Positions 1 to 23,569 of a stretch of DNA of 24,039 nucleotides are shown in pieces. Position numbers and translations under genes: made by a program. A model generated the notes under the pieces. It searched no databases. It saw only the letters and a list, made by a program, of their open reading frames with translations, and was not told where the DNA came from. Numbering within the stretch: position 1 is the first letter of the stretch; the number at the start of each line of letters is the position of its first letter. Source of the DNA: a virus; IMG/VR virus record IMGVR_UViG_3300006854_000048, positions 1-24,039 of that record; one strand, written 5' to 3'.

Positions 1-22
1 CCGACGAATATCTGTCTAACGA

Positions 23-1534
23 GTGAGATTTGAGGCTGGTGTGAGCCGAACTCCTCGGATTGCGAACCTCAACAGCCTGAAACGGCTGGAAGACACGTCG
101 GAAGGGCCGTGGCGGCGTTGGCGGACGAGGAGCAGGTCGGCGAGGGCGATCCGGTTCATCGAGTCGTACTGCCCGCCGCCGAAGGGGTTCGGTGCGGGCG
201 AGAACCTGCGGCTGGCCGGGTTCCAGAAGGAGCGGCTCGAGGAATGGCTCGAGGACGGGGTCAATTCGGCGGCCATGTCGGTGGCCCGGGGTAACGGGAA
301 GTCGACCTTCCTGGCCGCCGTCGGGTTGTGGGCGCTGTTCGACGCCGACGCCGCCGGTGGGGCCCCGCAGGTCCCCGTGGTCGCTACCACGCTCATGCAG
401 GCGGTCAGGAGCGTCTACGGGGTGGCCCTGGCGATGATCACGGCCAGCGAGCCGCTCAGGGGCCGGTCGATTGTGTACCAGTCGATCGGGAACCAGAAGG
501 TGGTGGTGCCGACGACGGGCGGCGAGATGTTCGCGGTGTCGAACGACGTGGACGGCCTGCAGGGCCTGGACCCTTCGCTGGCGATCTGCGACGAGATCGG
601 GTTCATGCCGATCGAGTCGTGGGACGCGCTGCTCCTCGCCAGCGGGAAGCGGCCCCGGTCGTTGGTGGTGGGGATCGGCACGCCCGGGTTCGACAAGGAC
701 AACGCGTTGTGGCATTTGCGGGAACGGGTCCGGTCCGGGGTGGTGTTGCCCGGGTTCCGGTTCACGGAGTACGCCGCCGACGATGGTTGCGACATCACCG
801 ACGAAGAGCAGTGGGCGAAGGCGAACCCGGCTTTGAGCGCGGGTTATCAGAACATCGACGCCTTCCGCACCGCGGTGGTGCTTTCCCCATCCGGCCATTT
901 CCGGATCTTCAGGTTGGGTCAGTGGGTCGACGGCACGGAATGCTGGTTGGGGGTGGACGGCGGCCGCGAATGGGACGTGCTCGCTTCCGCCCGGGAGCTG
1001 TCCGTCGGTGAGCCTGCCTGGTTGGGTGTCGACGTCGGTCTGAAACGGGACTCGACCGCGGTGGCGGTGGCGCAGCAGCACGCCGACGGGCGCTGGCACG
1101 TGAAGGTCAGGCTGTGGATCCCGACGGCCGACGAAGCCGTGGACGTCACCGACGTGATGCAACACATCCGGGAGCTGGCCGCCCTGGTCGACGTGCAGGG
1201 CGTGTCGTACGACCCCCGGTTCTTCGACGTGCCGGCCAAGATGCTCGAGGACGAGGGTCTACCGCTGATTGAGGTGCCCCAGTCGGTGGAACGGATGACG
1301 CCGGCTGTGGGTTCGACGTTCGAGCTGATCAAACGGGGCGGTCTCACCCACGACGGCGATCAGGGGGTCACCACCCAGGTGTTGAACGCGGTGGCGCGCT
1401 ACAACGACCGTGGGTTCACGCTGGCGAAGGGGAAGTCGCGGGGTCGGATTGACGCGGCGGTCGCGATGTGCCTGGCGTTGGATTTGGCGTTGCGTCAGGA
1501 ACGGCCGGTCGGGGATCAGGTGTTTTTCGGATGA
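23..1534 (+). CDS. terL: phage terminase large subunit
   Basis: This is the DNA-packaging motor: an ATPase that drives DNA into the prohead, plus a nuclease that cuts the concatemer. The 503 residues fit the family. A Walker A-like motif (SVARGNGKST, residues 86-95) and a Walker B motif (AICDE, 187-191) mark the ATPase. The C-terminal RNase H-like nuclease shows candidate acidic residues D337 (GVDVG), D397 (SYDPRFF) and D477 (GRIDAA). An alternative GTG at 41 (18 bases later) has a better-placed purine tract (TGAGG at 31-35), so the true start may be 41. The stop overlaps the next ATG (ATGA at 1531). No small terminase gene is visible; it would lie left of the window. Portal does not follow directly as it usually does: about 2.9 kb of accessory genes lie between. 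Confidence 0.95.
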   Translation: MRFEAGVSRTPRIANLNSLKRLEDTSEGPWRRWRTRSRSARAIRFIESYCPPPKGFGAGENLRLAGFQKERLEEWLEDGVNSAAMSVARGNGKSTFLAAVGLWALFDADAAGGAPQVPVVATTLMQAVRSVYGVALAMITASEPLRGRSIVYQSIGNQKVVVPTTGGEMFAVSNDVDGLQGLDPSLAICDEIGFMPIESWDALLLASGKRPRSLVVGIGTPGFDKDNALWHLRERVRSGVVLPGFRFTEYAADDGCDITDEEQWAKANPALSAGYQNIDAFRTAVVLSPSGHFRIFRLGQWVDGTECWLGVDGGREWDVLASARELSVGEPAWLGVDVGLKRDSTAVAVAQQHADGRWHVKVRLWIPTADEAVDVTDVMQHIRELAALVDVQGVSYDPRFFDVPAKMLEDEGLPLIEVPQSVERMTPAVGSTFELIKRGGLTHDGDQGVTTQVLNAVARYNDRGFTLAKGKSRGRIDAAVAMCLALDLALRQERPVGDQVFFG

Positions 1535-2344: not shown

Positions 2345-2502
2345 GGTGGTTGAAAAGAAAGAAAGCGCCTGTGCGGACTACCAGAAAGCTCGAATACGGT
2401 GATCACAATCGACCATGTACATGTCACGGCCCTGGTGACGACTGGTACGAAATCACTGGCGAGAAGCGTTCCGGGGTGCAGATGATCGACGGGTCAACGT
2501 GA
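2341..2502 (+). CDS. small hypothetical protein (53 aa)
   Basis: A 53-residue protein with a very basic N terminus (MRWLKRKKAPVR) and a central CTCHGPGDDWYE segment with two Cys and a His. It overlaps its neighbours by ATGA (2341) and GTGA (2499). The last codons (MIDGST) are encoded by the first copy of the start-associated motif, which serves as the leader of the methyltransferase gene. The function is unknown; a small nucleic-acid-binding protein is possible from the charge alone. Confidence 0.65.
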   Translation: MRWLKRKKAPVRTTRKLEYGDHNRPCTCHGPGDDWYEITGEKRSGVQMIDGST

Positions 2503-3149
2503 CGCCGTACTACGACGACGGACAGTCGACGATCTACCACGGCCACTGCCGCGAGATCCTGCCCGGGCTGGAGGGCGTGACGGCCATCGTCAGCGATCCA
2601 CCGTACGGGATGGCCTGGGACGGCAAAATCACCCGCGGCCCAAACGGCACCGGCTCGAAACTCCCCACGAGACACTGGGACGTTCCAGTCGTCGGCGACG
2701 ACGAGCCGTTCGACCCGACGTTCCTGCTCACCTTCCCCGAAGTCCTCCTGTGGGGCATGAACCATTACCCACAACACCTAGAGCGCGGGACGCTCCTCGT
2801 TTGGATCAAGCGTTACGACGACGGGTTCGGCAGCTTCCTCAGTGACGCCGAGGTGGCGTGGTTCAGTCGTGGTCATGGGGTCTACTGCCGCCGAGACACG
2901 TCCCTGCAGGGCGAGAGTCGTATGCGATATCACCCGACGCAAAAGCCGGTGCCGCTCATGGAGTGGTGCATCGGGTTTCTTAAGTCGCCAGGCGTAATTG
3001 TGGATCCGTTCGCTGGTTCTGGTTCCACGCTGGTGGCGGCGAAGAACCTCGGGCGGCGAGCTATAGGGATAGAGGTCGAGGAGCGCTACTGCGAGGTCGC
3101 CGTTAAGCGGCTCGCCCAAGAAGTCCTCGACTTCGGAGGGGCCGCATGA
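2499..3149 (+). CDS. site-specific DNA methyltransferase, beta class (N6-adenine likely)
   Basis: A 216-residue SAM-dependent DNA methyltransferase. The catalytic motif IV (DPPY, residues 33-36) comes before the SAM-binding motif I (DPFAGSGST, 169-177), which is followed by GIEVEERY (190-197); this order defines the beta class. HPTQKP (145-150) is the usual motif before the SAM site. DPPY favours N6-adenine over N4-cytosine methylation. No restriction endonuclease lies beside it, so it is an orphan enzyme, probably protecting phage DNA against host restriction or marking it. It starts at a GTG overlapping the preceding stop. The length is at the short end of the family, so its target-recognition region is small. 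The recognition sequence cannot be read from the protein. Confidence 0.92.
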   Translation: MTPYYDDGQSTIYHGHCREILPGLEGVTAIVSDPPYGMAWDGKITRGPNGTGSKLPTRHWDVPVVGDDEPFDPTFLLTFPEVLLWGMNHYPQHLERGTLLVWIKRYDDGFGSFLSDAEVAWFSRGHGVYCRRDTSLQGESRMRYHPTQKPVPLMEWCIGFLKSPGVIVDPFAGSGSTLVAAKNLGRRAIGIEVEERYCEVAVKRLAQEVLDFGGAA

Positions 3150-3292
3150 TCCGCATGACCGAGCCGATGCCATGCCCCCGGTGCCGACGCCCGGTGGTCC
3201 CGGGTGAGGAGCGTTGGTACGACGAGGACGGCCAGCCCCACGTCTGTGAACCAGCACAGCACGACGGCTGTGGGAGCGACGAACCGTCGTGA
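3146..3292 (+). CDS. small zinc-ribbon-like protein (48 aa)
   Basis: A 48-residue ORF between two methyltransferase genes, joined to both by ATGA (3146) and GTGA (3289). It has CPRC near the N terminus and two further Cys with His residues (HVCEPAQHDGC), the layout of a small zinc ribbon. Such peptides may act in DNA binding or as partner subunits; nothing here shows which. The tight overlaps on both sides make it likely to be translated. Confidence 0.65.
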   Translation: MIRMTEPMPCPRCRRPVVPGEERWYDEDGQPHVCEPAQHDGCGSDEPS

Positions 3293-3825
3293 CCTGGGAA
3301 GGGCTGACGCCCCCGTACGCCACCATCGTGGCCGACCCGCCGTGGTCGTACAACCGAAGCAAGGGCATCCAGGGCGCCATCGACGACCAGTATTCGACGC
3401 TCACCGGCTACGAGGTCGCCGCCCTCCAGGTGGAGGCACTCGCCGCCAAGGACGCCCACCTGTACCTGTGGGCCACCACGCCGAAGCTCTGGGACCGACC
3501 GCACCCCGCCGAGATTGCGGAGGCGTGGGGCTTCACGTTCAAGACGATGATCACCTGGGTCAAGGGAGAGAAGTCCGGCCTCGGCTGGTACTACCGAGTC
3601 GACACCGAACACTGCCTGTTCTGCACCCGAGGCAAGGCGCCTATCCCACCCGAGCTGCGCCAGTCCAACGTCCTCTGGTCACCCCGAGGCGCCCACTCGG
3701 CCAAGCCGGCGGCCTTCTACGACATCGTTGAGTCGGTCAGTTCAGGGCCGTACCTAGAGCTGTTCTGCCGGGCGCCCGTCATGGGCTGGGACTCTTGGGG
3801 GAAGGGCTACGAGGTGGCCTCATGA
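3289..3825 (+). CDS. MT-A70 family adenine N6-methyltransferase
   Basis: A 178-residue SAM-dependent methyltransferase of the MT-A70 family. The catalytic DPPW is at residues 16-19, followed by the family's usual segments: YLWATTPK, a conserved WGFTFKTMITWVK region, and a C-terminal YLELFCRAPVMGWDSWG. Phage members methylate adenine in DNA. With the upstream DPPY enzyme this phage carries two unrelated methyltransferases within 1.3 kb, pointing to modification of its own DNA against restriction. It starts at a GTG overlapping the previous stop and is near full length for phage members. RNA methylation is the alternative, judged less likely. Confidence 0.9.
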   Translation: MTWEGLTPPYATIVADPPWSYNRSKGIQGAIDDQYSTLTGYEVAALQVEALAAKDAHLYLWATTPKLWDRPHPAEIAEAWGFTFKTMITWVKGEKSGLGWYYRVDTEHCLFCTRGKAPIPPELRQSNVLWSPRGAHSAKPAAFYDIVESVSSGPYLELFCRAPVMGWDSWGKGYEVAS

Positions 3826-20808: not shown

Positions 20809-20956
20809 GCGGGTCGAACGGGCCTCCTGTCCGATCTGCGGCCGGCCGACGCATCGGTGGGTGAAGGTCCGCACCTTCAAAGCGCCCCGTGATCCTGAGG
20901 TGGCCGCCACGTTGTGGCTCCACGACGACGACAACACCCTGCGCTGCGATGAGTGA
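20801..20956 (+). CDS. small zinc-ribbon-like protein (51 aa)
   Basis: 51 residues with SCPICGRPTHRW near the N terminus (CxxC plus His) and a single Cys near the C terminus (LRCDE). GTG 20801 gives this frame; an ATGA at 20805 opens another frame that gives only a 19-residue Gly/Arg peptide and was rejected. It overlaps the next gene by 8 bases. Function unknown. Confidence 0.6.
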   Translation: MDERVERASCPICGRPTHRWVKVRTFKAPRDPEVAATLWLHDDDNTLRCDE

Positions 20957-21692
20957 CCCGACCGCCGCCGATCTCCTGGCGAAACTCCACGTCGAGACCC
21001 GCATCCCCGACCCGCGACTGGTCCAGCAGATCGACAAGGGAAAGTTCGTCGCCGACGCGGTCGGGCACGCCGACATCACCGACATTCTCCTCACCCACGA
21101 CCCGCTGTGGACGTGGGAGCCGCTGGCCTACGACGAGTCGGGCCTGCCGAAGATCACGGTGGACAAGTCGGGGCGGCTGGCGATGTGGGCGTGGCTGACC
21201 GTCCACGGCCACCGCCGCCTCGAGGTCGGCACGTGCATGGCGACGTCACCGGACCCGCTCAAGGAGCTGGTGGGGGATTTCCTGCGCCGGGGGGCGATGC
21301 GGTTCGGGCTCGCGTTGGCGTTGTGGAGCAAATCTGACTGGGAAGCGGGCGGTGAGAGTTCCCGGCCTGGGGAGCGGTCCTCCGGACGGAAACCTTGGGG
21401 AAGTGCCTCCGGGGAAAACGGCCCTCAGGCCGGGAACGTCCATCCGTTGCCAAAGCCTACCGACGCCGGTATCGCCAGACACCCCGCCTCGGGGCCCGTC
21501 CTGCCCACCGATCAGGCGATCGCCGCCAGGGCGGTCGAGCTGGGCCTGACCGACGACGAACGCCAGGACATCATCCGGGCCGTCACCGACGGGCGCACCA
21601 CGTCGGGGAAGGACCTGCGGGGCAAAGAACCGGGGCTCGTGTTCGCGGCGATGGCCGCCAAAGCCAAGGCCAAGGCGCCGGCCCGTGGATAG
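20949..21692 (+). CDS. putative single-strand annealing protein (Rad52/ERF-like)
   Basis: 247 residues. The N-terminal 130 residues carry the pattern GHADITDILLTHDPLWTWEPLA, then a loop, then LAMWAWLTVHGHRRLEVGT and DPLKELVGDFLRRGAMRFGLALALWSKSD. From memory this layout is that of the Rad52/ERF-like proteins in actinophage replication modules, which anneal single strands during recombination. A disordered Gly/Ser/Pro linker follows and a basic C-terminal tail (KAKAKAPARG). Start is ATG 20949, nested in the previous gene's end. The family assignment is moderate, since I cannot compare structures. Confidence 0.6.
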   Translation: MSDPTAADLLAKLHVETRIPDPRLVQQIDKGKFVADAVGHADITDILLTHDPLWTWEPLAYDESGLPKITVDKSGRLAMWAWLTVHGHRRLEVGTCMATSPDPLKELVGDFLRRGAMRFGLALALWSKSDWEAGGESSRPGERSSGRKPWGSASGENGPQAGNVHPLPKPTDAGIARHPASGPVLPTDQAIAARAVELGLTDDERQDIIRAVTDGRTTSGKDLRGKEPGLVFAAMAAKAKAKAPARG

Positions 21693-21858: not shown

Positions 21859-22063
21859 AGATCCCCGGCTCCCCGGTTTCGACAGGGCTACTGGCTCTCC
21901 TTGCGCCAGTCGTGGGGCCCGAGGAGATCGAGGAGCCGGGCAGAAATGGCGCTGCAAGAAATGCGGATTAATTACCGACTATTGGGCACGGGCGGAACGA
22001 CACGCGGACGAGCTGGGGCATCCCCGAATTGAGGTCGTGTTTTCAAAGGGGGAGGTTGCATGA
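21851..22063 (+). CDS. small zinc-finger-like protein (70 aa)
   Basis: 70 residues. The C-terminal half reads WRCKKCGLITDYWARAERHADELGH, with two Cys and two His in the order of a C2H2-like finger. The N-terminal half is Arg/Gly-rich and may be unstructured. It overlaps the previous gene by 8 bases and the next by ATGA. Likely DNA or RNA binding, by motif only. Confidence 0.6.
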   Translation: MARDPRLPGFDRATGSPCASRGARGDRGAGQKWRCKKCGLITDYWARAERHADELGHPRIEVVFSKGEVA

Positions 22064-22347
22064 CCCGGAAGCGATGGAAAGACCCGGACAAGCGAATGCG
22101 GCGGGCGGTCGACATGAGGCGGCAAGGCTGGTCGCTGCGACGTATCGGAGCGGAACTGGCCGTTAGCGAAGGAACGATTCGTAACGACTTAGCCCGTTGG
22201 GTGCATCAGCAGGAAAACCAAGGACCGGCCCGACCATCTCTCAGTTTGGTTCGGTCTGCGCAATCGCTGCGTAACGGCGGTGCGCAATCAACCGCTGATT
22301 ACGCAGGCGAAATACGCACCGATTACGCAACAGGCGAGGGGGCGTAA
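22060..22347 (+). CDS. helix-turn-helix DNA-binding protein
   Basis: 95 residues. The N-terminal half is basic with a clear helix-turn-helix (DMRRQGWSLRRIGAELAVSEGTIRNDLARWV, about 17-47), like sigma-region-4 or resolvase-type motifs. The C-terminal third is low complexity (SAQSLRNGGAQSTADYAGEIRTDYA) because its DNA is the six-copy repeat array at 22257-22329. A DNA-binding gene carrying an array in its own 3' end resembles lambda O, which holds its origin; this protein may bind it. A strong GGGGGAGG precedes ATG 22060. Confidence 0.75.
   Translation: MTRKRWKDPDKRMRRAVDMRRQGWSLRRIGAELAVSEGTIRNDLARWVHQQENQGPARPSLSLVRSAQSLRNGGAQSTADYAGEIRTDYATGEGA
22257..22329. repeat. symmetric six-copy 9-bp repeat array (candidate replication origin or operator)
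   Basis: Three 9-mers read TGCGCAATC (22257), TGCGTAACG (22268) and TGCGCAATC (22281); three in the other orientation read GATTACGCA (22297), AAATACGCA (22310) and GATTACGCA (22321). The gaps are 2, 4, 7, 4 and 2 bases, an exact mirror image about 22293. The shared core is TTRCGCA or close variants. It lies inside the 3' end of the HTH gene. Confidence 0.8.
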
Positions 22348-22797
22348 GTGAGGATTCCGCGGGCGATCATGGTTGAGATCGAGCGGGTGGGCCGGCTGAT
22401 CTTCGAGGGCGAGATGACCTGGGAGGAAGCGCTCGATGCCTTGGAGCCCTTCCTCTACAAAGAGGAGTATCGGCTGCTGACGTCGGACGTCCTGCGGAGG
22501 TTCCTCAGGAAAGAGATCAAGGCGTGGCTGGCATCCCAGGTGCGCACTGCGGCAGACGACGAGGAAACCGGCCAGCAGCCGCTGTGGGCCCCGGACCTGC
22601 CGCCGTACATCGAGATCGCGGTGGCGACCCGCAAGCATCAGAACGCCATGACGATCAAGGACTGGGAAGCCGCCTACAACCAGGCGCAGGTAAAGGCAGA
22701 CAACGCCATTGGGTACCGCGAGCGGATCGGTCAGGCATTGGAGCGGGCCAAGAGGGAGCTTCACGGAGATCAGACCTGCGGTGAGGCCACGGGGTGA
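22348..22797 (+). CDS. hypothetical early phage protein (149 aa)
   Basis: 149 residues, mostly helical. The N-terminal third (VEIERVGRLIFEGEMTWEEALDALEPFL) and RRFLRKEIKAWLASQVR resemble an unnamed protein often found beside replication genes in actinophages; I know no function. No catalytic motif stands out. It starts at GTG 22348, directly after the TAA of the HTH gene, with GAGGGGG upstream, and overlaps the replication gene by GTGA. Confidence 0.65.
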   Translation: MRIPRAIMVEIERVGRLIFEGEMTWEEALDALEPFLYKEEYRLLTSDVLRRFLRKEIKAWLASQVRTAADDEETGQQPLWAPDLPPYIEIAVATRKHQNAMTIKDWEAAYNQAQVKADNAIGYRERIGQALERAKRELHGDQTCGEATG

Positions 22798-23273
22798 TCA
22801 TCCGAGTTAAACACGAGAAGAACTACACCGTCATCAGCGACCATTCACTGCGTGACGACCGGCTGTCGTTCCGGGCAACCGGCGTCCTCGCCTACCTCCT
22901 CAGCCTCCCCGACGGCACTGAGTTATCGGGGGTGCGGCTGGTCGCCGCGAAGGCCGAAGGCCGCGACGCGGTGTACACCGCGCTGAAGGAACTCCAGGAC
23001 GCCGGCTACCTCCTGAGAACCAAACGGCAGGACGAAACTGGGCACTGGTACACGTCCTGCACCGTCCGCGAGCTTCCTGGAAATCCCCCACCGATTACGG
23101 GTTTCCAGAAATCGGTTACCCGACAATCGGTTAACCAGGAACTAAAAGCTTTTAGTACCTCTAGTGAGTACCAAGAAGGAAACGCTCCGCTGGAAATCAC
23201 ACCGGCCCCCATGCCAGCCGAGTTGCGGGCCCGTCTCCCCAAGCACGACCAGGACGACGAGCAGACCGCATGA
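22794..23273 (+). CDS. winged-helix replication protein (replisome organiser-like)
   Basis: 159 residues. The N-terminal 95 residues are a winged helix: RDDRLSFRATGVLAYLLSLPDG (20-41), EGRDAVYTALKELQDAGYLLR (55-75), then a beta wing (RQDETGHWYTSCTVREL). This is the pattern of phage helix-turn-helix proteins that open or organise replication origins. A Ser/Asn/Gln linker (about 98-130) follows, encoded by AT-rich, repeat-bearing DNA, then a Pro-rich acidic tail. Start by GTGA overlap with the previous gene. As the partner helicase loader or helicase is not visible, it must recruit one from beyond the window or the host. Confidence 0.78.
   Translation: MIIRVKHEKNYTVISDHSLRDDRLSFRATGVLAYLLSLPDGTELSGVRLVAAKAEGRDAVYTALKELQDAGYLLRTKRQDETGHWYTSCTVRELPGNPPPITGFQKSVTRQSVNQELKAFSTSSEYQEGNAPLEITPAPMPAELRARLPKHDQDDEQTA
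23091..23156. repeat. AT-rich repeats and 16-bp palindrome inside the replication gene
   Basis: CCGATTAC (23091), AATCGGTTA at 23110-23118 and 23125-23133 (15 bases apart), then the perfect palindrome ACTAAAAGCTTTTAGT at 23141-23156. TTTTAGTACC at 23150-23159 is the reverse complement of GGTACTAAAA in the early promoter (20020-20029). This is one of the lowest-GC stretches in the window, as expected for an unwinding element or operator. Confidence 0.6.
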
Positions 23274-23569
23274 CCCGCCCTCACCGCCGCTGTCTCGGCC
23301 TCCCCGGGATCCGTTGCGACGAACTGACCCGCAACCCTGGCGGCCGTTGCCGCCGATGCGAACAAGCCTTCCAGCGGATCCGCAACCAGAAACGCACCCA
23401 GTACGCCGGCGGCTGGAAACGCCTCAGCCAGAAAGCCCGTGAAGAAGAACCCTGGTGCCACCGGCCCGGCTGCCCCAACCCACACACCAGCGACCTCACC
23501 TTCGACCACGAAACCGGCACCGTCGAATGCCGCCCGTGCAACAGCTCCCACCGAAGGAACCGGGCATGA
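23270..23569 (+). CDS. HNH endonuclease-like protein
   Basis: 99 residues. Two Cys pairs (C63/C68 and C87/C90) frame a degenerate HNH site: TFDHETG (DH at 79-80), CRPCNSSH (N91, H94). The N terminus holds further Cys (CDEL, CRRC) and basic residues. HNH proteins of this size often cooperate with the terminase at the cos cleavage, or act as nicking enzymes; here it sits in the early module. The HNH call is good, the role is open. Start by ATGA overlap. Confidence 0.78.
   Translation: MTRPHRRCLGLPGIRCDELTRNPGGRCRRCEQAFQRIRNQKRTQYAGGWKRLSQKAREEEPWCHRPGCPNPHTSDLTFDHETGTVECRPCNSSHRRNRA

Follow-up and report, generated by a model that had tools for sequence, protein, structure and literature searches.

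A mirrored six-site array in an HTH gene, and a separate candidate origin, in the early region of a probable temperate phage

Repeated sites within phage replication genes have a familiar precedent in the lambda O gene, which contains iteron-like repeats together with an AT-rich stretch. Published work on TP901-1 is said to have found its repeats to be required for replication. Inverted arrays, both of operators and of iterons, are as such already known. RepE of the F plasmid binds the origin iterons and also inverted repeats that precede the gene encoding it (PMC13028717), and SPP1 gp38 binds oriL, which lies within gene 38, as well as the distant oriR (PMC6316719).

The window analyzed here is the whole of the IMG/VR virus record IMGVR_UViG_3300006854_000048 (24,039 bases, GC 0.65). 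The left end of the record carries the large terminase gene, followed by head and tail genes and then by a minus-strand integrase and repressor. The early region after the repressor encodes, in this order, a single-strand annealing protein (20889-21692), an HTH protein (22060-22347, plus strand), a protein with no function assigned (ORF2, 22348-22797, plus strand), the replication initiator Rep (22794-23273, plus strand) and an HNH protein (23270-23569); the end of ORF2 overlaps the start of rep. The record comes from a small phage that is probably temperate and probably has a high-GC host. An earlier note on this DNA had placed a repeat array in the HTH gene, two genes ahead of a replication gene, and this setting is as described.

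The rep gene of the window shares both anatomy and place with lambda O and the TP901-1 Rep family, having repeats behind the HTH and an AT-rich stretch at about +300. This anatomy resides in rep and not in the HTH gene, and the array beginning at 22257 is an additional, inverted cluster. The F plasmid likewise combines origin repeats (the oriS iterons) with an inverted cluster of similar core, the RepE operator, ahead of the initiator gene (PMC13028717); unlike that operator, the array has six putative sites, arranged as two mirrored triads, and lies in an HTH gene of its own. SPP1 has one initiator and two repeat clusters, one of them in the initiator's own gene, and the window would be alike in this respect if Rep binds both of its clusters. 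However, oriL and oriR are both direct repeats with AT-rich regions (PMC6316719), whereas the array is inverted and has no such region.

Six mirrored sites in the HTH gene

The six-site array is genuine. Six near-identical 9-mers occupy 73 bases (22257..22329) in the order + + + - - -. The forward copies are TGCGCAATC at 22257-22265, TGCGTAACG at 22268-22276 and TGCGCAATC at 22281-22289; the inverted copies, on the minus strand, are GATTACGCA at 22297-22305, AAATACGCA at 22310-22318 and GATTACGCA at 22321-22329. The gaps (GC, GCGG, AACCGCT, GGCG and CC) measure 2, 4, 7, 4 and 2 bases, and the earlier note had both these and the coordinates exactly right. The core that it proposed, TTRCGCA, is exact in five of the six copies, but copy 5 (AAATACGCA), the most deviant, has ATACGCA instead.

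The same note had judged that the copies and their mirrored spacing together would not easily arise by chance, and this judgment stands. The array agrees with its consensus at 48 of 54 bases, making it the top six-copy 9-mer cluster of the record (73-base clusters were scored throughout), and a score of 48 was reached in 1 of 2800 codon-shuffled genomes, in which codons were permuted in arbitrary frames within 600-base blocks. Synonymous recoding of the HTH gene, with the protein kept, yielded five exact copies in 0 of 20000 trials, for a motif chosen post hoc. A looser test that accepted any motif (7-mers, one mismatch) was much weaker: 2 of about 400 recodings, and likewise 3 of 400 record windows, contained six copies, and the claim for the array therefore depends on the stricter 48/54 score. 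Mirrored gaps account for 0.6-2.1% of all placements of the 19 gap bases, and 2 of the 64 orders of orientation are +++--- or ---+++. The gap bases are themselves not mirrored (GC/GG, GCGG/CGCC), and thus the symmetry is limited to the 9-mers.

The copies start in frames 2, 1, 2, 0, 1 and 0, and because all three reading frames are occupied, a peptide repeat is excluded as the cause and the array is constrained as DNA. An RNA stem (attenuator or terminator) was also rejected. A transcript hairpin at 22264-22309 folds well (z -4.1), but equally good folding was obtained with 733 of 2000 gap-shuffled versions of the array, so that the hairpin simply reflects the presence of inverted copies. The unmirrored flanks of the 9-mers, together with RNA folding no better than in the controls, favor protein sites over an RNA stem, and the array looks like a real cluster of (putative) protein-binding sites. 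Inverted, symmetric sites of this kind are typical of an operator, and several repeats of one short motif are equally a property of origins. The GC content of the array is 0.56, as low as in 4% of windows, and no AT-rich unwinding region comparable with the one in rep (see below), such as an origin should have, was found beside it.

The HTH gene is preceded by a ribosome site (GGGGGAGG) and encodes 95 aa, with a homeodomain-like tri-helix at residues 9-53. The array lies within the 3' part of the gene, where it encodes a tail predicted with low confidence (from residue 66); 18 bp separate its end from the start of ORF2, whose ribosome site follows directly. Searches of viral_contigs, phages, genome_contigs and 24 records related to terminases found no relatives of the HTH gene, and plasmid matches were weak (about 30% identity). 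A fold search with the model of the HTH protein returned generic HTH folds and nothing significant, and a search for DNA relatives of the array found none.

A candidate origin within rep

Rep is an HTH_36-type phage replication initiator, homologous to TP901-1 Rep, and matches PHROGs 4707, 1456, 428, 270 and 186, which make up a large phage initiator family (162 phage records). Directly behind the Rep HTH are iteron-like repeats on the plus strand (ACCGATTACGGG, ATCGGTTACCCG and ATCGGTTAACCA; 23090..23137), with starts 21 and 15 nt apart. These overlap the AT-richest 90 bases of the whole record (23093..23182, GC 0.42 versus 0.65), a candidate unwinding region at +299 of rep that contains a palindrome (23137-23160). 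In an automatic repeat search, those of the window's rep gene did not come out as the top family.

In the TP901-1 rep gene, repeats in 15-nt steps occur at +353, and in Aleemily, phiC2, PDS1 and Lb, repeats in 15- or 16-nt steps occur at about +300 to +385. An AT dip, defined as a stretch of 90 nt, at +280 to +440 of rep, within the lowest 5% of the locus, is present in 12 of 16 Rep homologues, TP901-1 included; in Elener, Aleemily, Ranunculus, Kozie and Tank it ranks at or close to the bottom of the locus, and among the 16 a clear dip was not seen in REQ2, Whack, Ponzi and BruhMoment. The gene at 22794-23273 is of the TP901-1 type in its homology and in the repeats and AT-rich stretch behind its HTH. 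Since rep has its own repeats and the lowest-GC stretch, at the place typical of the family, it fills the origin role better than the array does. Judged from these sequence features, the replication origin is most likely within rep, about 800 bases downstream of the array.

Another Rep gene with internal repeats was noticed at the locus L002:5314-5424, where three repeats in 30-nt steps directly follow the Rep match. In the Arthrobacter phage BruhMoment, four palindromic repeats like TGTTCCCTNNAGGGAACA (L327:4901-5012), with an adjoining AT-rich stretch, lie upstream of a primase/helicase gene. This array is outside rep, which there has no usual AT dip, and it is a candidate for a moved origin.

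Arrays in other phages

Among the matches listed in a survey of viral contigs, to which the following findings apply, TGCGYAA arrays often fall within genes for DNA-binding proteins that have an HTH. Mirrored matches numbered 69 for TGCGYAA versus 21 for a control motif matched in composition, and tandem matches at least 120 versus 70; arrays of the control motif sit in Rep, primase and helicase genes. The scan of 49 proteins (48 hand-picked ORFs containing or abutting an array, plus the window's own HTH protein) gave matches to small-terminase PHROGs for 17 and to primase and Rep families for fewer, and in the terminases the array-coded stretch comes directly after the HTH. A phmmer search with three HTH queries, for HTH relatives beside TGCGYAA arrays, gave weak scores, which are informative for close relatives only. 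The surveys with the two motifs argue that an array inside the gene whose product presumably binds it is a widespread layout in phages and not a novelty. Binding of the 22060 protein to its own gene, as the earlier note inferred, would fit this layout.

The exact spacing of one triad recurs in viral_contigs at three unrelated loci (L124-L126), and the mirrored second triad is absent at all three. In these contigs and in L059, TGCGCAA arrays coincide with the stop codon of a primase gene or follow it immediately; the primase in L059, L124 and L125 ends in an HTH-like segment. In L005, L009, L012, L043, L071 and others, TGCGCAA arrays directly follow the N-terminal HTH in small-terminase genes and are candidate packaging sites (one control motif was compared).

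Proposed control of rep and candidate binders

We tentatively prefer an explanation to which we give a little less than even confidence: the array would provide six putative sites for a sequence-specific protein of the replication module, and would be an operator or accessory control site heading the ORF2-rep pair, not an origin. The array is probably an ordinary, operator-like control site. Its position favors the 22060 HTH protein as the binder. This protein would bind the array within the gene that encodes it, with the two triads facing each other and co-operating; the bound array would limit transcription into ORF2 and rep and so exert negative control over the supply of Rep, and Rep-initiated replication would then begin at 23090-23182. 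No promoter-like sequence was found near the array when scored by the sigma-70 consensus, which may not be that of the host, and this counts against the preferred explanation. Integrase arm sites were set aside as a candidate, since 2.7 kb separate the array from the integrase gene.

The chief alternative to the HTH protein as binder is Rep. It could bind both clusters, using the rep-gene repeats to open the origin and the inverted array upstream of its operon either to regulate its own expression or as an additional site of replication. The sequence similarity between the array and the rep-gene repeats favors Rep over the HTH protein and counts against the preferred explanation: the motif GRTTAMSSR fits the rep-gene repeats and two array copies, with six of its eight occurrences in the record falling within the two clusters; the 11-mer CACCGATTACG is common to both; the column-permutation p for the array consensus GATTACGCA versus the rep-gene repeats is 0.006 (post hoc); and the chance of GATTACG in a random 45-nt stretch is about 0.005. 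RepE of F (PMC13028717) and SPP1 gp38 (PMC6316719) are precedents for one initiator with two kinds of cluster. However, the likeness extends to 19 of 27 bases and is thus partial, it was spotted post hoc, and the homologous phages that were checked showed no further tight cluster of the rep-gene motif beyond rep itself. We consider binding of both clusters by Rep somewhat unlikely. It is more doubtful that the whole replicon is run like an iteron plasmid, with Rep opening the origin via the repeats in rep and being throttled at the mirrored upstream operator, where the HTH protein would be its partner or competitor.

The earlier note had called the array a candidate origin or operator, and the second term is the one that we retain as possible and preferred. 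An origin at the array, opened by the HTH protein, could draw on the frequency of iteron-like arrays in replication genes and on BruhMoment, where the palindromic array outside rep, beside an AT-rich stretch, suggests that origins may move; but with no comparable AT-rich stretch at the array, and with a complete origin-like anatomy in rep at the place typical of the family, it seems very unlikely. We regard as most improbable a packaging role, in which the HTH protein would be an unrecognized small terminase that recognizes the array. The array is like SPP1 pac (PMC6316719) and the TGCGYAA arrays of terminase genes in lying in the gene of an HTH protein, past the HTH-coding part, and in the survey small terminases frequently had an array immediately after the HTH; no small terminase was recognized among the part of the ORFs scanned, and TerS is not necessarily adjacent to TerL (PMC9611059). 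Yet the window's HTH cannot be aligned with these terminases and has no profile match to terminase HTHs, leaving it short of the similarity expected of a small terminase; 95 aa leave little space for an oligomerization domain; and the cohesive ends of the record are seemingly elsewhere, its left end resembling a cohesive end common to relatives and the array lying 1.7 kb from the right end. Finally, the array could be a functionless cluster that arose by chance or as a by-product of codon use, or else some other host or phage protein could bind there. The post hoc choice of motif and the unremarkable outcome of the any-motif test speak for this, the genome-wide figure of 1 in 2800, in which the mirrored spacing is not yet counted, speaks against it, and on balance we think it unlikely.

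The comparison tells apart two easily confused clusters: a likely origin in rep, with the AT dip at about +300 seen in the Rep family, and, close by, an inverted array whose role is more likely one of regulation. Should Rep bind both, the phage would offer a small and testable example of a temperate phage with autoregulation in the style of iteron plasmids.

The left end of the record (window 1-30) is probably a cohesive end common to relatives, as far as its sequence indicates. It is similar to the starts of the related contigs L189, L190, L194 and L205 (CCGAC..CGCACGG..AACG), which likewise begin just ahead of the large terminase, and the same sequence is internal in L196. Shortly downstream of the large terminase in the window are two DNA methyltransferase genes (2499-3146 and 3289-3822).
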